Positions 2,301 to 50,990 of a stretch of 64,000 bases of DNA are shown piece after piece. The notes beneath the pieces are model-generated. The model saw nothing but the letters and a program-made list of their open reading frames with translations, was not told the DNA's origin and ran no database searches. This DNA is from Panorpa germanica (taxonomy: Eukaryota; Arthropoda; Insecta; Mecoptera; Panorpidae). Location: contig OY783207.1 in NCBI GenBank assembly GCA_963678705.1, forward strand, positions 3,844,001 through 3,908,000, read 5' to 3'. Made by a program: the position numbers and the translations under genes. The stretch's first letter is position 1; the number at the start of each line of letters is the position of its first letter.

Positions 2301-2719
2301 ATAGCAAATATATAATAATCGGCCTCAGATTAGATTTGACCAAGATATTGAGCGAGTGATACTATGTATATGTAGGAGAAGGTGAAGTTCGTCAGCTTGC
2401 TACATATATGTACTCGCGTATTTTTAACATATCGGTTACTACATGTTATCTTTCTATGCGTCCTCCATGCTTGTGTACACGTCATAGCTGACTGGAATTT
2501 ACTGTATAGTCATTGCGATAATTAAATGAAACAACAACGGGTTTTTAAATACTTCAAAATGTTTGTATTATAAATAAACTGACTGGTGCAAACATAACCG
2601 TACATTTTTTTATTAATTTGACAACTCTCAGATTGTCCGCACATTACGTAATAAAGTTTCAATATCAACTTTATGAACATAACCTATATTCGTGTATAAA
2701 AAATATTAAAAATAGTAAA

Positions 2720-3670
2720 ATGTTGTTAGAGTGTTTAGCAATTTTGGGTGTTTATACTCTTTTCTTGTGGTTTGGAAATATCTTGTGGAATGTTATTCAA
2801 TATGTGAGTGCTATATTAAAATCAATAGTTCAATCAAGAAATTTACGTGATCGATTTGGCGATTGGGCTGTTGTAACCGGTTCAACAGATGGCGTTGGGA
2901 AAGAATACGCTAAAGAATTAGCTAAGCAAGGGATAAACATTGTCCTCATCAGCAGAACAAAAGCGAAGCTAGAGAAAGTAGCACAAGAAATCAAATCGGA
3001 ATTTAATGTCGAAACGAAAATCATCGTAGCTGACTTCAGCAAAGGTCGTGAGATTTATGACCACATAGAAAAGGAACTGCAAGGTACACCAGTTGGGATT
3101 CTTGTCAACAATGTCGGCGTCATCAACGACTACCCTGAATACTTCACAAAGATATCCAAGGAAACGACATGGAGCATGATAAACGTTAATGTGGGAGCTG
3201 TTACAATGATGTGCCATCTCCTGATACCATCTATGAAAAAGCGAGGAAGGGGGGCCATTGTGAACATATCGTCCATTGCAGGAAATCAACCATTGCCCCT
3301 AATGTCAGTCTATGGAGCCACTAAAGCCTTCTGCAGCAGCTTAACGCATGCTTTAAGATTCGAACATAAATCTAGTCCAATTATTTTCCAGAATATTACG
3401 CCTTCTTACGTGATTACTGGAATGACAGCTTATTCGGACAAGCTCTCTGATCCTAATGCGTCTATGTTCCTGCCAACTGCAGCTGCATTTACGAGGCAAG
3501 CTGTGCATTCGTTAGGTAAAATAGATTCCTGCACTGGATATTTACCGCATGAGTTGGAGAACACGCTGTTCAATATATTTCCAACCTGGATTCGAACAAT
3601 TGGAGCTGGAACACGAAATGGTAAACTACGCCACGAATATTTTGAACGAGAGCAACAAAAAAATAAATAA
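2720..3670 (+). CDS. short-chain dehydrogenase, 3-oxoacyl-CoA reductase / HSDL1 type
   Basis: The single-exon frame encodes a 316-residue membrane-anchored short-chain dehydrogenase of the very-long-chain 3-oxoacyl-CoA reductase / 17-beta-hydroxysteroid dehydrogenase 12 / HSDL1 family. Members reduce 3-oxoacyl-CoA in fatty acid elongation at the ER, or are HSDL1-like. I start at the ATG at 2720 because the 34 codons before it lack family character and the resulting length fits the family. A hydrophobic N-terminus (residues about 5-35) is followed by the cofactor motif TGSTDGVG (53-60), D105, NNVG (130-133), the catalytic serine in NISSIAG (about 185) and YGATK with Tyr198 and Lys202. The intact Tyr and Lys predict an active enzyme, unlike vertebrate HSDL1, where Tyr is replaced. 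The substrate cannot be told. There are no introns. A polyadenylation signal AATAAA lies near 3777. Family A MITEs in opposite orientation lie on both sides. Confidence 0.86.
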   Translation: MLLECLAILGVYTLFLWFGNILWNVIQYVSAILKSIVQSRNLRDRFGDWAVVTGSTDGVGKEYAKELAKQGINIVLISRTKAKLEKVAQEIKSEFNVETKIIVADFSKGREIYDHIEKELQGTPVGILVNNVGVINDYPEYFTKISKETTWSMINVNVGAVTMMCHLLIPSMKKRGRGAIVNISSIAGNQPLPLMSVYGATKAFCSSLTHALRFEHKSSPIIFQNITPSYVITGMTAYSDKLSDPNASMFLPTAAAFTRQAVHSLGKIDSCTGYLPHELENTLFNIFPTWIRTIGAGTRNGKLRHEYFEREQQKNK

Positions 3671-5218: not shown

Positions 5219-8906
<3,688 letters not shown>

Positions 8907-11177: not shown

Positions 11178-14100
11178 CTAAATATTATAACTAGTAGTTA
11201 AATGTGGATCTACTACAGCTAAAACGGACCCTATTAAATGTAAAGACCCTGTTACTAACACTTCAATTTCGTCATTATTTTGCGTATCATTTAAATATTT
11301 TAATACATTCGAGACACAATTAAATGTGTGTACTAATTGCTTACTACCATTACTAACTTCTTCCTTATTTTCTGGTTTACGTTGAATATTTAGCCACAGT
11401 TCTTTATTAATTTTACAGCGATCCATTTGAAGCTCCACCGGGTTGGAATAGTTTGTTTGATCTATAAGTTAATTTATAAGAAGTTAAAATTACACTAAAA
11501 CATATATTTGTGGAAAAGATTTTACAAATACATACCGTTGTTATTATTACATTGTTCAAAAGCAATATTAGGAACAAAAATAACTTCGTTAAAGTTGCAT
11601 TTATGTAATAATTGTAACAGATGCGTAGAATCTCGATCACCGGTTATGTTAAACAGCAATACCTTTCGATAATTATCTCTGTAACATAGAAAATTAGTAA
11701 GGACTATGCTAATTTAATACAAAATGATCGATAGAAGCTGCTTACCTAATATTTTTCTGGAACCAATCTATACAAACTTGCATACTCTCAAAGGTATGAG
11801 CACCATCCAAATATAATCTGAAAAAAAACATTGAGTATATAAAAAGATTGCTCTAAATTATTGGCTATGTAACAAAATGATTCTTTAATAATAGTTACCT
11901 TGTTTTCTTGTAATCAAATATTTGACATCGTCCTGGCCAAAAACAGTCTGTAAGTCCTTGAGCAAAGATTTCGGGTACATTCAAAATTTGATCATTTCCA
12001 AAATATTCTACTCCATTATGCTCGTTTGATATTGTATTTATTTCCGATTCTCTTCTAACAGATATCCAATGTTGCGCCATTTGTATCGCAAGAGATGCAT
12101 TTATTTTCTGTACATCTGTATTAATTTTTAACTCAGGTTGCTTTCCTTCAAACTTGTATAAATTATACTCTGGTACAATATTTACCTTACACTGAAAAGA
12201 CAAATAAATATATTAAAACACATTTTAAAGTATGGAGGCGTGAGAGTAATAATTACTGACTTCTTTTTCAATGGCTCGGCTTTGTATAACGTTCATGGCT
12301 TCTGCAGTTTGTCGAACAGTAAATGCTGTGCATCCTGGTTTCATTATTCCAGCTTTTTGCCACGCAATTTGTTCAATTGTATTACCAAGGAGTCCAGTGT
12401 GTTCCAAGCCAAGCGATGTAATACCCACAGTTGATACATTTCTAAAAATACAATATATATTTAATAATCAATAATCTCGTAGGCATTTGATATCTATTAG
12501 TTATATAAGAATTAAATAAAGAATACCTTAAAACATTGGTGCAGTCATATTCTCCACCAATTCCAACTTCAATTATAGCAACATCTACACCTTCTGATAT
12601 AAATATATTAAATGCAAGTACTGTTAGAAATTTGAAATATGGTGGCATATCATGTTCATGCTCCTGAAAGAATACCATACAAAATGTTGTTAATATACAG
12701 AACTACATATATGTTAGGCGTAAGTTTATTTACGTAAAATATTGTAAAGAATATTACAATACAGTTCTTAAATATGAAGAGGTCAGAAAAGGTCATCTGT
12801 GATAGGGCTGGGTTAGAAATAGTCCGTAGATAATTAATATTTAACAAATATAAAACAAAAAAACGTATATTACTTTGCAACAGTTGTATTTCGGTTTAAA
12901 TATTACAATTTCTTATATTATATACAATAAAATATATAATTTCATAAGCAATTAGGTGAATACTTACAAAATATTTACCTGATTTTCATTAAGATCATTA
13001 AATACTTTATGAAAGTACTTTGTAAATATTTCTTGAGTAATTGGTTGTCCACCAAGCATTATTCTTTCTCTCACAGACACCAAGTGTGGAGATAGAAACA
13101 TTCCCGTTTTGAATCCCTTAGCTCTTAATATAGATTCACAAAAAGCACATGTAGACCCCTAATTAAATTACAAAAGTTCACTAAATATCATTATATATAT
13201 TTTACATAAACGTTTATTTCAACTTACATAAAAAATATTATATAGAATTATCGAACTTTTTTAACCATTTACTGTGACAATACTTTAAAATATTAATCAA
13301 TTCTATACATCAATTTAAAATATTACTATTAATGAAAGCGTAAGTTATATTAACAATAGGATTAATTTCAAATACCTTTCCTTTAGTTCCAGTAATATGT
13401 ATAATATTTAATGTATCTAATACATTTAAACTAATTCCGGATCGGATTAAATACTTTCTTGTATTTTCCAGTTTAGAATTGTTATCCTTATAAGCAGTAG
13501 CTATAGTTTTCAAATTCGTCCGTGTTTGCAATAAATTCAATGATTTTATGCAGTCCTAAAACACCAAAGTACATTAATATACACCGAATACATTAATACA
13601 TGTTATATATTATACATTAGTATAGTTCTATTTATGAGAGATTGTTCCTAGAGCTTACAACAAGTTGAGCAGTATAAACTATGATGCAATGGTGAATTTT
13701 ATAATTTTTTCGCTTCTATATACGTTATATTAAAATGAATTTATTGAACTGTTGATTTACACGATTCAAGTTTATTTAAGCATGAGTCACATCGATCTCT
13801 TAAATTGAACTATGTTTACAGATATACTTACATTATATGTAAATTTCCTTGTTTGTAATAATTCACGAGTTGAATTCATTGTTATTGAATTCACTACGTT
13901 ACTATTAGCTTTCTTATCACAATTCTTTTACACAAGTTTATTTTGAGACACTTAATAGGAGATGGTGAATATTTAAGATGCGCACATATACATATAACGT
14001 AGATAAATAATTGTTTATCATATCATTATATCAATATACTTCATATCTATGTACATACTAGAAACGGTATGCTTACTCCTACATAACATATTATTATAGA

Positions 14101-15166
14101 AACAAGTTTTTGTAACCAGTAGGTAGCCAGAGGCTATGATGTGTAAAAATAAAGAAAGATACATAATTTACGTGTTGTGAAAAAAATTCAAGTGATTATT
14201 TACAACAAATTTTATGTGGTAATTATTTGTGTTGCATAAAGTTCGAACAAAAACTGAATTGAATGCATTCTACGCATTCAATTATTAACAAACGGTGTAG
14301 GTATTGAATATCTTATTCATATTTCACAAAGATGTGCTGAATAAGCTGAAACTTCAAGAATTAGAGAATAAAGATAATGTTATACATATTTGTAAGTTGT
14401 TAAAAATATCATGCATTGAAAACCAAGTTTGTAATATTAAGTAATGGATAAAATACTCTTTTACAGGTTGAAGAGAGTGGTAACGTTGATGAAGACAGTC
14501 GCTTAGATAAATCCTACTTACCCGTTTACTTTTCAGCGAAGAATAAACATTCCAGAAATGTCTTGAGAAATTATCCCGATTTATTGGCCGACCACTAATT
14601 CTAATTCTTTCAGTTACAGAAACTAAATGTGGCGATGAAAAAAATCCAGTTTTATATCCTTGAGCTCGCAGGATCGATTCACAGAGAGCACATGCTGACC
14701 CCTTAATTTAAATTTAACATTTTAGGAGTTTTAATTTTAGTATTTAATAGTAAATATAAATATTTCTGATATACTTTGCCCTTAGTTCCGGTTACATGGA
14801 TGACTTTAAGGTTGTCCAAACTTTCTAAAGTAATTCCACATCTTGTTAAGTATTTTTCTGTGTCTTTTACATTTAAACATTCTTTTGTATGAACCCTGGT
14901 AGAGCCAGCTTGTTGAAGATATGCAGCATTACTTTGAAGGAGATTCAAATGTTTTACTGCATTCTGAAAAAAATACAATATAAATTACAATGAAATAAAA
15001 TTAGTAAAAATAAATTTAGTACAAAATAAAAATATTATATTTACTACAAACAACTTACCTCGAAACTTAATTTATTTATTTCCTGTAAACTTTGATTTGC
15101 GAAACCTGATTTGCAAACAGTATCTACCACCATTTTCAACGATCTCTTGACAAATAAGCTAAGCAT
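11178..15166 (-). CDS. Fpgs: folylpolyglutamate synthase (module A plus shared exons)
   Basis: The enzyme adds glutamates to folates using ATP, retaining them in cytosol and mitochondria. Module A exons: 15166-15059, 14963-14775, 14701-14522. Shared exons: 12663-12527, 12441-12261, 12191-11899, 11817-11746, 11678-11536, 11461-11178. All junction phases agree, giving 528 residues. Family marks are [12 protein letters not shown] (ATP P-loop, split by an intron after GTKGK), [31 protein letters not shown] with [12 protein letters not shown], and [24 protein letters not shown] at the start looks like a mitochondrial targeting peptide; the internal Met12 could start a cytosolic form, as in other FPGS genes. 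An ATG at 15259, 31 codons upstream, is also in frame. The donor after exon 5 is GTCAGT, weaker than the others. A second set of first exons lies inside the intron (see next entry). Its start is about 1 kb from the divergent gene at 16159. Confidence 0.9.
12979..13879 (-). CDS. Fpgs: alternative Fpgs N-terminal module B (three exons)
   Basis: Exons 13879-13832 ([16 protein letters not shown]), 13555-13376 and 13158-12979 repeat the structure of module A. Each module ends in a 60-codon exon in phase 0, so either could join the shared exon at 12663. With the shared exons this form gives 505 residues. The P-loop ITGTKGKGSTC is intact. In the last exon about 33 of 60 residues match module A. Module B differs at usually conserved places: FLSPHL instead of FSSPHL and ERIMLGG instead of ERIRISG. 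It has no obvious mitochondrial leader, so it may be the cytosolic form. No stop codons or broken splice sites were seen. Alternatively B plus the shared exons is the main gene and A is an added copy. Confidence 0.8.
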
Positions 15167-15734
15167 AAGTTGATTAAAATCTTTGCCGCAATATATATTA
15201 TTGAAACGTATTAGTATAAATATGCTAATCAATATTTTTATCTTGTAATACTTTGGCATGAATATATTTACTCGTGTAATTACGTTAGTTGTACGATGTA
15301 CGATTTAATTCTTTGCGTTTTGGACTGATAAAAACATGCTAAAAAAATTATTGATGTGTGTTAAAGTTATCAACTATATAAGTATTCATTATAATAAATT
15401 CATTAGATAATAATATGTGTCCTCCAAATATATTGAAAGCAAAATGCAATAATATTTAATAGTTCACATAGCGATTGAATTGAAGATAACGTTCCAATGT
15501 AAAAACCAGTATAATATATGACAATGTTCATAATGTTGCATAGAGGAAGGTCAACCTTTTATATTCTAAAATAATAAACAAAATAAACACGTATTCTTAA
15601 TTTACCACAAATTATTCAAATTACACAATATTAAAGATAAGAAAACAAGCATATGTATGATGACCGCATGGCGTTTGACATTTGCAAAGTTTTTTTTATG
15701 CGCCATCTATTTTATAGAACCTGAATCTTGTAAG

Positions 15735-16158: not shown

Positions 16159-16904
16159 ATGGATGAGAATAAAGGAATAGATCCTCCTATTTTTAATATT
16201 TTAGGTGAGATGTCATCAATTTTTAATAAATCAATTGTATGCGTTCAGCAGGATTCATTCAAAATTGGAAGTAATTAATTTTAAAATTATTATGTTATTG
16301 AATCTTAACAAATATCTATTAAATGAATTCGATTTTCGTAGAAACAGAGGAAGAGCCGCTTACAGTATTCGAGGATGCCAAACCTAATGTAAATAAAAAA
16401 CATAATATACAAATTAACAAAACACATAATACTTATAAAAACAAAATAGAAAAAGATCGTATTATTGAAATACTTGAGCAGATGAAAACCAGATTTAATA
16501 ATTCACTACAATCGGTTGAAAACAATAATTCTAATTTTAAAGAAAGTAATACTTATCATAAACAGATACAGCAAAATAAAACTTTAGCAGGAAATTATGC
16601 AGAACCCACAAACAATATTTCCGGAAGTATGAATTTCAACAATACTGAGACTGAACATAAACAAAACCGGAAGGATATAATAAAAACTTCAAAAGTTTTA
16701 CAAAGAAAATGTCCTGCAAATGCAATAAGTTACTCCAAAACAAAAAGAACTATTGAAAGAAAAAACAGAGAATGTTCTCGTAAAAGTAAAGAAGCTGTTC
16801 TTGATATATTGGGTGGGATGAAATCAGTTTTTAATCAGCCAACTCCATTTCCTGTTAAAAATGAATCCAAGTCCACAGCGGATGTATTGTTTCCGAAGAA
16901 ATAG
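16159..16904 (+). CDS. small protein with three ILGxMKSxFN motifs, function unknown
   Basis: Proposed two-exon model: 16159-16270 and 16342-16904. The donor is GTAATT, the acceptor TTTTCGTAG, phase 1, giving 224 residues rich in Asn, Lys and Glu. I do not recognise a domain. The N-terminus MDENKG...FNILGEMSSIFNK, the middle IIEILEQMKTRFNN and the end VLDILGGMKSVFNQP are three copies of one short motif. The next gene, EHMT/G9a, carries the same motif once near its N-terminus ([12 protein letters not shown]) after a similar MxDxNK-type start. This suggests that the gene arose by duplication of the EHMT first exon, or the reverse. The first-exon donor phase also fits the EHMT second exon at 18646, so it could be an alternative EHMT first exon. 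Polyadenylation signals lie near 17210. It could be a decaying copy, although the long frame is open. Confidence 0.55.
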
Positions 16905-17768: not shown

Positions 17769-20700
17769 ATGTGTGACGCGAATAAGGAAAATTCTATTAT
17801 TGATAAAATTCTGGGTCAGATGAAATCAATTTTTAACCAAGCAGCTCAACCCACTCAAGAATGTGAACTTGAATCTGTAAAGGAAAGTTATATATGTGAA
17901 ACAGTAGATGAAAATAAATCGTCTGATAATGTAAATGACAATACTTCAAAATCTGTAGAAAAAATTGACAATCCAACTGAAAATAGTCCAAGTCATATCA
18001 TTACACCAGATAGCACAAGAAGTAAAGATAAGGAAGGAACTGAAATGGCAGATTCAGCGAATAAAACACCAATTAAACAATCTAAACGTCTACGAAAAAA
18101 CACAGAAGAATTATCACCACAAATATCAAAGAAAACAATTGAAGATCTGCCAGAAAACATAAAAAAGCCGCCTGAAGAATTAGAAGATGAGGAGCGATTA
18201 AAGAGCACTATAAATACAGAAAAGGTATTGTCAAAAAATTCATTTAAAAAAGACCGCACTTCTAATAAGGATGCTAAATGTAAAACAAATAAAAAGACTG
18301 AATCAGAGAATAAAAAGTCTGAATTAGCGGAATCAACAGAAGGTGTCAATGAAGTAGACGATAAACCAAGAATTGTATTAACATTTCGAGGAGAAAAGTC
18401 TAATATGAAAATTATTTCTGAAAAATCTCCACAAACTTCACCAAAAAAAGAGGAAGTATCTGATGTAGTACAGGAAAAGGAATTAGAAAAACAACTGAAA
18501 TCGCCAGGACGTCGATCGCTTAGATTAAAAAGTAATATTGGCGATATAAAGTTAAGAACAGGTAAGATATTTATAATTATGTTAATCTTTAACAATTAAT
18601 TTGTTTAGTAAGACTATCTTATTTAATCATGTAATATATTTGTAGAAGCAATAGTTGAATCTTTAAATGTCAAACGTTCTCCGCGACGTCGTTCAAAAGA
18701 CTACACTGAGAGCGTCTTAGCCAATGCTATCGCCCGCAAAGAAAAATCCTACGAACCCGTTTTACCTCAACAACGATTATCGAGAAGAATAAAACCAACA
18801 GCTAAAATTCTGGCAAACAAAAACCTTCGAATGGGTGTTGAATTGCAAAATAACGCTCGTTTGTCAATTAGTAATGATAAAGATCGCGAAAGAAATGATG
18901 AGAAATTGTTACTGGAAAGAAATACTACTGAAAAGGTAAAGAATTCGTCAGAAGAAACTCAAGCAGAAATGAATGTACCTACAGTTAAGGAGATAAAAGA
19001 AGAACAGGTAAGTCCCACAAAAGAGAAAATTTTGTCTAACGAAAATTTAAGACAACTGCAAGAGAACCACCTGAAACTATTTGGATTATGCATTGTTGGG
19101 AAGCAGGAAAATAAATTAAAGGAAGATAGTGAGGTCACTTTAAGAGAATCTTCTGATGATAACAACAAACTTGATCAAAAACACACAAGGTTGGTTAATT
19201 ATGCAAGTGCAAGTCTAATATTCTTTTTTGAGAAACAGTATAATATTTTTAAACGATGTTTTAGGTCTCGGCAACGTGTAAAGTCAGTTCAAGAAACCAA
19301 GCGTAATTTAAGAGATAGATCAAAGAAATCTTTGGATGATCAACATAATTCTCCAACGAAACAAAAATCACTCATCCAAGATGTTTTTACAAATTCACGA
19401 AAAAGACAGTCTGCAGAATCGTTGAGTCGTGATACATATGTAGCGAAAAAAAGAAATAATACGATAGATAATAGTGATATTAAAACTGCTCAAAACATAT
19501 GTGTAAATGGTCCAGAACAACGAGCTAGTAATTCAAAAGATGAGCGCAGTTTTATAAAGTTAGAAGATTCTGCATTAAAAATAGAAAATTCACAAAGTTT
19601 AATGTTGGAAGCCGGACAAAGTGATGGTGTTATTCCAAAAAATTCTGTTAACTTGATTGCGACAAAACCAATCTCTTGTCTTTGCAGGCAGAAAACAAAT
19701 GTGTTCGTGGATTTAACTGATTTATCAGGTACATCTCAATCGAGTAGGGATTGCTTATGAATAATTAACTAAATAAAGTACATAACGATTTGTATTTCAG
19801 AAAGCTCCAAGTATTGTTCTGCTGTGGATTCAATCGATTCTCGGTTCGTTGGATGTCTCAACACCGTGAAACATTTTTCAGAAGATAATAACGTAGAGAT
19901 AATGTTAATGCGAGCCTCGGTTAAAGTACCATATATGAGTATGTGTGTGTCACATAGAGAACGATTGTATAGGCATTTATGTTGTGCCGGCTGTGGGGTA
20001 TTTTGTACACACGTAAGTTTTAAAAGTAATGTAAAAAGTGTATAACCAACTCATTTAAAAAAATCAAACGACTTTCATTGTAGGGTACTTTTAAACAATG
20101 CGTATACAAGCATTTGTATCATAGAAACTGCTCACAATTTGTAAATAACAATCCCTGTTGCCCACATTGTGGTTCTGATGATTCAGTAAAAGAAGTGAAG
20201 ATAACAATGCAGACAAAAAATAGAATTGTGTTCATGCCTGCTCAAGGTGATTATTGTGAACCTGCAAGAATTAATTTTAAAAATCGTCAAACTGATAATA
20301 GTAAAAAAGCATTAATTGATTTAACGGATAATAGACCTGAAACTCCACCATTGTTGGATAAATCAATTGTTTTTATGTTAAAAAATATTAAGTCTATTAC
20401 TGTAGAACAAAAATATACTTACAAGGATTTATATAAGTTCCTGAAAACTCCAGAAAAGCTAATTCATGTTATAGGTATGTAATGATTCTAATGCATGTTT
20501 AATGAAGCCAATGCCCATTTTTTTACGTTAATTGTTTTTTTTAGCTTCAGGTTTGGATTTAAATCAACCTCTTGACGAATCAGCACTAACTACAGCTCTT
20601 CACATAGCTGCTCGTACAGGGCTGCTTTCTGTGGTTCATATTCTTATCGTTTGTGGGGCTCAAATAGATATCTTAGATCGAGAACAAAGAACGCCCTTAA

Positions 20701-22595
20701 TGCTAGCTGTAATTGCAGAAAAAAACGATGTAGTTCAATATTTAATTAAAGCTGGAAGTGATATTAAATTTAAGGTATAAATAAATTCGCCATTTTTTAA
20801 TATACTATTTCTTTTTGTTATCTATAATAAAAATCTTTAGGGTACAGATGGTATGTCCGCTTTACATTTGGCCGCAAAAACTGGTAACTTAGGAGCTTGT
20901 ATCTTGCTGTTGTCCGTGCACAACATTGAGAGTAATTACATAAACGGATTGGACGACGGCGGGTGGACACCATTAGTATGGGCTGCAGAACATGCTCATT
21001 TCGAGATTGTAAAGTAAGTTTTCTGATATATACTTTAGGTATATTTGTTTTGATAATTTATCTCATAAATTTATTTTACAGATATCTATTACAACAAAAT
21101 GCAAATCCTCATATACCAGATGCAGAGCAAAATGTTGTAGTGCATTGGGCAGCTTTATCCGGGAGCTCTTCTATCATTGAAATGCTGCTAAATCATAAAT
21201 GCGATGTTAATAGCATTAATGCTCATGGGGATACACCTCTGTGAGATATAGCTGTGTATAGAAAGCTATCTTTATGAATTTGCAATAAAATTTATTGTTT
21301 TTAGGCATATTGGAGCTCGTCAAAATAACTATAAATGCGTTTTAATACTACTAGCACGTAATGCTCGGGTTGATCTAGTAAATACCTCTGGAGAGACAGC
21401 CCTTGCTTGTTGTACAGAAGGCAACGATTCATATAATGCCATATCTTTTAATGTTCAAATGCAGGACGTGGTTAATGAACAAACAGTTAAAATATTAACA
21501 AAGTAATTATATAGAACATATTAAGGTATATATAAGTTTAATAAGTCGAAAATATGAAAATGTATAATTGTTTTAGTGACATCACGCGTGGAAAGGAGTT
21601 GAACCCAATTCAATGTATAAATGCCGTGGACTATGAATCATATCCTAAAGATTTTACTTACGTTACACATGTTTGTATAACATCCGATGTTCCGGTGCAG
21701 AATAAAATTGCTTTAATGCAGTATTGTGTCTGCGAGGACAAGTGTGGCTCAACGAATTGTCGTTGTGGAGCTTCATCATCAAGATGTTGGTACGATGATG
21801 ATGGCAAACTTTTAGAAAATTTTAATTATGCAAATCCTCCTGTGCTTTTTGAATGTAACGACGCCTGCAATTGTAATAAGGTAAACTATAATAACATCAA
21901 ATAAATTAATCGAATATTATATGAATATGTTATATGTATTTGGATATAGATTACCTGTTTAAATCGTGTAGTACAGCGAGGTATTACATCACGTCTTGAA
22001 GTTGTTCGGACAACGGGGAAAGGCTGGACGGTGCGTTCTTTAAGATTCATACCACGTGGAACGTTTGTCGCAGAGTATATTGGAGAATTACTAACCGATG
22101 GAGATGCTGATCAGAGAATTGATGATACATTTTTCTTTGCACTAGATAGCTCAGTGAGAATTTGTATTTATTTAAAAACATTTATATAAATATAGTATAT
22201 TATAAATAATATTTTTTCAGGATGAGATTCCTTGTTGTATTGACGCTCGCCATTACGGTAACATCTCTAGATTTATCAACCATAGCTGTGAAGCTAATTT
22301 AGTTCCAGTACGAGTGCTCGTAGAACACCAAGATGTCAGATTTCCTAGAATAGCGTTGTTTGCCTGCAAAGATATACAGGCTCAAGAAGAACTCGGGTTC
22401 GTTACTTGTTCGTTAGTTGTCCAAGTTTTATACATTTATAGAAGACATTGTTCATTCATTGGTATTTATTTTAGGTTTGATTATGGAGAAAAGTTTTGGA
22501 TTATAAAGCACGATAAGTTCACATGCTTATGTGGTTCTAGAAACTGCAAATATTCTATAGATACAATATCAGAGACGTTGAACATTTTTAAATGA
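17769..22595 (+). CDS. G9a: EHMT/G9a histone H3 lysine-9 methyltransferase
   Basis: A 13-exon model of 1,322 residues: 17769-18561, 18646-19189, 19265-19728, 19801-20012, 20084-20474, 20545-20774, 20841-21013, 21082-21240, 21305-21502, 21577-21880, 21950-22153, 22221-22396, 22475-22595; phases are consistent. The long acidic and lysine-rich N-terminus (1-600) includes one [11 protein letters not shown] motif at 14-24. A cysteine-rich EHMT region follows (about 600-700, [11 protein letters not shown]). Ankyrin repeats span about 805-1050; they read methylated H3K9 in this family. Pre-SET cysteines ([16 protein letters not shown]) lie in 1055-1156. The SET domain has [20 protein letters not shown] and FDYGEKFW, and the post-SET has CLCGSRNC. 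All expected catalytic and zinc-binding elements are present, so the enzyme should mono- and dimethylate H3K9 in the nucleus. The intron 19190-19264 is 75 nt and in frame, with a weak donor (GTTGGT), and may be retained. Confidence 0.95.
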
Positions 22596-50340: not shown

Positions 50341-50990
50341 TTATAATTTATAATTCAATTTTACAATCTTCTAAATATTTCAATAATTCACTAATTAATT
50401 TTGAATCACTTAACAAAAATTTAGTATTAACAGGAAAAGTTTTAATCACATCTAATATTTCACTATTCAATTTTGATCTTTTTAAACTATAATTTATGCA
50501 TTCAAATATAATATGATCCAAAGTTCCTTCTTCACCACATTGACATCTATCGTCGGATTTAATATTAATTATGTGCAGGTGGGCTGGAGTTTTATAATGA
50601 TTACTATTGATTCTGATTATAGTTGATATAATTTTGCGGGACTCATTTCTAAACCATCTCTTCTTACTTAAATTTGGATGTAACATATAATAATCTCTTC
50701 CTTTTAACTGACTTTTGTTAATGAAATCTGTGTTTGATATGTTCTAAAATTGAAGTTTAATTTTTTGATTATATTAAAAATTTCATATGGAGGTAATTTC
50801 ACTTTCATCTCAATTTCTAAATTTATTGATTCCTTTGCCAATTTATCCGCAATTTCGTTTCGTCTTATTCGACAATTTCCCAGTATCCACATAAATTTTA
50901 TGGTATTATTCTTATTTATTATATTGAAATACATCTCCTTAATTTTGCATGTCAAAATATCATTAATCTTATTAATAATTTAACTTTTTA
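50341..50990 (-). pseudogene. degenerate non-LTR retrotransposon, RNase H and C-terminal part
   Basis: On the minus strand the frame near 50955-50704 reads IKFMWILGNCRIRRNEIADKLAKES, matching the end of a LINE RNase H domain (W-x-P-G-H-x-x-I-x-G-N-E-x-A-D). The usual Pro, His and Gly are replaced here. The frame then breaks near 50700. It resumes at 50686-50348 with RINSNHYKTPAHLH and CQCGEEGTLDHIIFEC, the typical zinc-binding tail of Jockey/I/R1-type elements. It is not functional. It shares its class with the smaller piece at 37345. Confidence 0.72.

Follow-up and report, generated by a model that had tools for sequence, protein, structure and literature searches.

Can a single Fpgs gene supply two enzymes by placing alternative N-terminal parts in front of one C-terminal part? 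FPGS retains folates within cells and organelles, and a locus of the insect Panorpa germanica raises this question in an unusual form. We analyzed a stretch of 64,000 nucleotides (contig OY783207.1 of assembly GCA_963678705.1, positions 3,844,001 to 3,908,000 of the forward strand), called the window here, in which two sets of three exons, modules A and B, lie in tandem before a set of six shared exons of Fpgs. From the sequence we conclude that the gene carries two long-retained, constrained N-terminal modules before one C-terminal part, and we consider it likely that these are old alternatives, each joined to the shared exons, which would give two forms of FPGS.

Two N-terminal modules precede one set of shared exons

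Exon bounds were read manually from the sequence, and splicing and translation were then checked by a script (Table 1). The order on the minus strand is A1-A2-A3 (15166-14522), B1-B2-B3 (13879-12979) and then the six shared exons (12663-11178), in DNA with a G+C content of 30% and with short introns. Joined to the shared exons, module A gives a protein of 528 amino acids (aa) and module B one of 505 aa, and neither spliced reading has an internal stop. Each module exon is a multiple of three nucleotides, so that every junction is in phase 0 up to and including that with shared exon 4 (12663-12527); A3 is phase-compatible with exon 4 and has a GTAAGT donor. A preliminary description of the locus had spoken of a duplicated catalytic half, which is too much: the module accounts for 159 of 528 residues in the A form and 136 of 505 in the B form, less than one third of the protein.

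Table 1. Exons and associated interval of the Fpgs gene in the window
Feature	Position	Length (nt)	Strand	Basis or remark
Exon A1, module A leader	15059..15166	108	minus	Spliced translation; further in-frame ATGs at 15259 and 15133
Exon A2, P-loop GTKGK at 3' end	14775..14963	189	minus	Spliced translation, A/B alignment
Exon A3, GSACA...SSPHL...ERIRISG	14522..14701	180	minus	Weak AAG acceptor, donor GTAAGT
Exon B1, module B leader	13832..13879	48	minus	Probable first exon
Exon B2, P-loop GTKGK at 3' end	13376..13555	180	minus	Spliced translation, A/B alignment
Exon B3, GSTCA...LSPHL...ERIMLGG	12979..13158	180	minus	Spliced translation, A/B alignment
Six shared exons	12663-12527, 12441-12261, 12191-11899, 11817-11746, 11678-11536, 11461-11178		minus	End at stop codon
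Interval from module A to B1	13880..14521	642	minus	Putative place of the module B promoter

Both forms belong, by sequence, to the FolC/FPGS (Mur-ligase-like) family, and enzyme activity is predicted for each. The TIGR01499 folC profile scored the A form at 343.8 bits and the B form at 346.1 bits against a cutoff of 162.65, covering profile positions 3-399 and 1-399, respectively, of 400. Each form matched 10 distinct FolC/FPGS sequences of solved structure at E ≤ 0.001, and both modules carry the GTKGKGS, SPHL and ERI motifs. The Pfam Mur ligase middle domain was matched below its gathering score of 24 (A 20.2, B 22.5), as was the Mur ligase C-terminal domain below its score of 28.4 (A 17.6, B 17.5). 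Each protein also had a single other weak Pfam match under the cutoff, with E values of 0.12 and 0.059, which was taken as chance.

Exons 2 and 3 are homologous and the C-terminal part is single

When module A was compared with the window by tblastn, B3 (E 7e-20) and B2 (E 4e-10) were found, and the remaining matches had E values of at least 1.7. The two copies of exon 3 are identical at 33 of 60 residues and are both 180 nt long, while those of exon 2 (189 vs 180 nt), aligned with a gap of three residues, agree at 26 of 60 positions, which makes 59 of 120 identical residues for exons 2 and 3 jointly. The identity and length of exon 3 agree exactly with the preliminary description, whose coordinates, frames and phases were also reproduced. 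At the nucleotide level, exons 2 and 3 of the modules differ at 151 of 360 positions (42%), and on this ground an assembly duplicate of one allele was rejected. A recent duplication traceable in the introns was also rejected, as only short matches were present there (best E 0.004 across 13 nt).

Further tblastn searches of the window found no copies of the modules other than A and B (next matches at E of at least 1.3), no second set of shared exons (next matches at E of at least 1.2) and no remnant of shared exons between A3 and B1. A separate C-terminal part belonging to module A was rejected, as no such copy was found in the window, and with one C-terminal part found there, module A, if used, must join the shared exons either directly or through B2-B3.

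Both modules have been retained under constraint

That both modules have been kept for a long time, as proposed in the preliminary description, is borne out by their constraint, by open frames set against simulation and by similar branch lengths. A Nei-Gojobori comparison of exons 2 and 3 between A and B gave pN 0.33 and pS 0.71 (dN 0.44; dS 2.2, near saturation), and the differences at codon positions 1, 2 and 3 numbered 43, 36 and 72 (P = 0.0007), a pattern of purifying constraint. Neutral decay of exons 2 and 3 was simulated with substitutions only, in 1000 runs each. At 5% divergence, 24-25% of the neutral copies were still open; at 21% (half of the observed 42%, one half for each branch) the share was 0.5-1.1%, and at 42% it was 0.1-0.2%. 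In a tree based on exon 3 and the last part of exon 2, the branches of A (0.243) and B (0.274) are similar, so neither module has run ahead. Given the pN/pS values, the codon-position skew and these branch lengths, neither block resembles a relic.

Relatives for comparison came from scans with a four-row alignment and comprised the best 80 of 570 related genome-contig stretches, all titled as bacteria or archaea, together with three viral-contig stretches; none of the stretches matched in earlier scans of genome contigs (82) and viral contigs (31) encodes a relative. Conservation was tabulated for 82 of these 83 relatives, a short fragment (L083) being dropped, over 72 residues, namely the 12 at the 3' end of exon 2 and all 60 of exon 3. 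Of the 16 columns conserved in at least 90% of the relatives, 15 are kept in each module, and the one missed is the same in both, a P-loop position where K stands in place of N. At a threshold of 80%, each keeps 18 of 20, the second miss being the residue before SPHL, which is T in 71 relatives, N in 6 and S in 5, and which is S in module A and L in module B. This leucine is found in none of the 82 relatives and upholds one of the motif differences noted earlier between the modules, whereas the other, Arg in A against Met in B after ERI, falls in a variable column (R in 23 and M in 4 of the 82). The column of the third P-loop glycine also varies (G 55, T 26, S 1). When the exon 2 end was scored together with exon 3 by a profile made from the 55 of 83 relatives with GKG[ST], A reached 94.4 bits and B 86.9 bits, a small gap favoring A that is reversed when TIGR01499 is applied to the isolated modules (A 100 bits, B 102 bits).

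After rerooting on one relative (L022), the tree places A and B as a clade of two, without a support value and with outgroups that are prokaryotic or from viral contigs; the automatic test of their monophyly before rerooting returned False, which we attribute to the rooting. All that follows from the rerooted tree is that these prokaryotic and viral-contig sequences do not group with either module.

These results bear on another reading, in which one of the modules, A or B, would be the front part of an old, no longer functional gene duplicate at the onset of decay. The weak AAG acceptor of A3 and the failure to find a second C-terminal part in the window would fit such a history, but the frames are open despite the 42% nucleotide difference, the two branches are of similar length and each module keeps nearly all of the columns conserved at 90% or more (15 of 16), so we consider a decaying duplicate quite unlikely.

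Proposed alternative use of the modules and points against it

The explanation that we favor starts from an animal Fpgs gene in which exons 2-3, at least, were duplicated in tandem long ago, each copy being preceded by a leader exon. Module A would probably be transcribed from an upstream promoter, and A3 would be spliced to shared exon 4 with B2 and B3 skipped, while module B would probably start from its own promoter within 14521-13880. The outcome would be two full enzymes with a common back part, unlike each other in the leader and at roughly half of the positions encoded by exons 2-3. The basic leader of module A would probably allow this form to serve the mitochondria, with a start at a downstream Met also supplying the cytosol, and module B would probably be cytosolic. 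The A and B forms may also differ in activity.

Acceptor sites were scored with a small leave-one-out model built from the gene's own ten acceptors, which makes the scores rough. The frame of the B1 ATG is closed by a stop 17 codons farther upstream, and among the acceptor-like sites in 14400-13861 none within 190 nt upstream of this ATG scores above 1.7. The stop and the lack of a good acceptor nearby make B1 a probable first exon, which would have a promoter of its own. Sites farther upstream, at 14078 (5.0) and 14345 (6.55), score like some real acceptors of the gene, and through them an internal, non-coding 5' extension of B1 is possible.

Several points weigh against alternative use of the modules as blocks. 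The acceptor of A3 is AAG without a pyrimidine tract and, at 1.07, has the lowest score of the ten, at the 73rd percentile among all AGs of the minus strand; the splice sites, described earlier as intact, do follow GT/AG throughout, but this acceptor is a poor one. Joining A3 to exon 4 also requires that B2 and B3 be skipped, and both have usable acceptors (4.87 and 3.23); the acceptor of exon 4 is stronger (10.32), which favors the skipping of B2-B3 without proving it. No RNA pairing of the docking/selector type was clearly beyond shuffles in six pairs of 200-nt intron stretches, as the observed pairing energy was reached by 62, 72, 24, 94, 11 and 69 of 100 mononucleotide shuffles per pair. 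The leaders A1 and B1 have no mutual tblastn match at E up to 10, and without detectable likeness between them copying is shown for exons 2 and 3 only, the leaders corresponding by position, so the duplicated unit was not necessarily one of three exons. Of the three exons said in the preliminary description to occur twice, exons 2 and 3 are thus confirmed by tblastn and the leader is a positional counterpart. Finally, pairwise constraint is an average over both branches, and a recent loss of one module would be compatible with it.

Because all the module junctions are in phase 0, hybrid joins and a fusion of the two modules are in frame just as the A and B forms are. The modules may not be used as blocks at all: A1 might continue mainly into B2, much as mouse Fpgs employs alternative first exons, and A2-A3 would then be used little or in mixed combinations. 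The readings A1-B2-B3 (525 aa), A1-A2-B3 (528 aa) and A1-A2-A3-B3 (588 aa) are all open, the weakness of the A3 acceptor would fit such use, and mouse Fpgs has two promoters with different first exons, as far as the accessible text of the source goes (PMC1513244). A2 and A3 nevertheless retain open frames and, in the part compared, the residues conserved in the family, which would be needless for a rarely used pair, and this use of the exons appears unlikely to us.

A straight-through transcript from the A promoter, A1-A2-A3-B2-B3 and then the shared exons, would demand no exon skipping, and its reading is in frame and open, encoding a 648-aa protein with tandem P-loop segments and two GTKGKGS motifs. 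Such a protein would presumably place a second partial ATP-binding segment inside a Mur-ligase-type fold, and the acceptor of exon 4 lies well above that of B2 (10.32 vs 4.87), so we regard run-through as very improbable, and separate joining of each module to the shared exons remains our preferred reading.

The 73-nt intron between A2 and A3 (14702-14774) combines a weak donor, GTATAT, the second lowest of 11, with the lowest-scoring of the ten acceptors, and may be inefficiently or conditionally spliced.

Leaders, start codons and location

Leaders were compared by simple counts of charge and amphipathic moment, which are not a trained targeting predictor. For the A leader read from 15166, the net charge over 25 residues is +3, acidic residues begin at position 15 and the highest amphipathic moment of any 11 residues is 0.67; for the B leader, the net charge is +2, acidic residues begin at position 6 and the moment is 0.42. 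These values hint, though weakly, at a mitochondrial leader for module A.

In-frame ATGs flank the A start at 15166, one upstream at 15259 and one downstream at 15133, so module A may begin at any of the three. From 15133, the net charge is -1, the first acidic residue is residue 4 and the moment is 0.58; from 15259, the values are +4, residue 27 and 0.45. The ATG at 15259 lengthens module A by 31 residues and gives a hydrophobic, signal-like start (MPKYYKIKILISIFILIRF). The context of the ATG at 15133 (GAAAATGG) is close to the start context of insects, and the B start ATG (ATAACAATGA) has a good context too. With a start-like context at 15133, module A alone could supply both compartments by leaky scanning, comparable to the choice of start within exon 1 of human FPGS (PMC1513244). 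The earlier proposal of two enzyme forms is thus in keeping with two complete modules before one C-terminal part. Module B as the sole cytosolic form is just one possibility, given the ATG at 15133 and an A1-to-B2 join that is in frame, and the proposed difference in substrate preference would be a further assumption.

Comparison with known systems

Within the accessible part of one source (PMC1513244), mouse Fpgs is described as having dual promoters, with transcripts named by the upstream exon A1a or exon 1. The same text attributes the mitochondrial and cytosolic forms of human FPGS to start codon choice in exon 1, and gives the human exon 1 variants 1, 1A, 1B, 1C and 2A, all joined to exon 2. 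As far as this account goes, the locus described here resembles these genes in that several enzyme forms would come from one locus, through the choice of a 5' exon (mouse) or of a start (human), and differs from them in that homologous exons 2-3, including the P-loop, are doubled behind their own leaders.

The UGT1 and protocadherin clusters have tandem N-terminal units with common downstream exons, according to the portion of PMC3325998 available. Like UGT1 in that portion, the Panorpa gene has homologous tandem 5' coding units (here exons 2-3) and one constant downstream set. Unlike UGT1, with its single variable first exon, it has three exons per unit, and B2 and B3 bear acceptors, so their skipping would not be automatic.

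Tandem duplicated exons that substitute for one another are described, in the parts of the sources at hand, as rare but important and as present in vertebrates, arthropods and nematodes (PMC9741552; also PMC6071210). The exons of modules A and B share with such mutually exclusive exons, as presented there, their homology, similar lengths (180/180 and 189/180 nt), phase 0 and key residues kept while others have changed; they differ in forming a three-exon block with a start codon, and competing RNA structure was not found in the intron stretches compared. The terms "fpgs" and "folyl" are absent from the main text of PMC9741552, and no duplicated N-terminal part of Fpgs was found, judging by titles and the start of abstracts, in partial literature listings that cover few subscription journals.

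The layout thus follows the known kind of tandem-unit genes, and what looks unusual, and is apparently new, is a three-exon unit with an ATP P-loop in an enzyme of central metabolism; with such units, this gene would join the known tandem-unit genes. We put forward only tentatively, and as a rather doubtful proposal, that the two forms constitute an isozyme pair from one gene, in which a swap of nearly the first third of the protein, including the P-loop and the SPHL/ERI region, would make them differ both in compartment and in the folates or chain lengths favored. If this were true, the insect would have a built-in pair where mammals use alternative first exons or start codons, and if the catalytic segment and not the leader alone is swapped, the locus would allow a test of whether compartment-specific forms of FPGS need different catalytic properties.

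Neighboring genes in the window

No tRNA was found in the 64-kb window by ARAGORN. Reading frames with matches to a short-chain dehydrogenase (2549-3667, plus strand) and to a homeodomain (5517-6044, minus strand) lie on one side of Fpgs. On the other side, the plus strand carries pieces of an EHMT-type histone methyltransferase at about 20084-22592, comprising the EHMT Cys-rich region (below gathering score), ankyrin, Pre-SET and SET. These neighbors are what one would expect of animal DNA, and the short introns and 30% G+C would suit an insect. An open frame at 50351-50743 on the minus strand matches zf-RVT weakly (E 0.0014, below gathering score) and is perhaps a retrotransposon remnant. 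On the EHMT side of Fpgs, a plus-strand open frame, in which the first ATG lies at 16323, diverges from the Fpgs start at 15166, about 1.2 kb away, and as the two stand back to back, they may have a common promoter region between 15166 and 16323.
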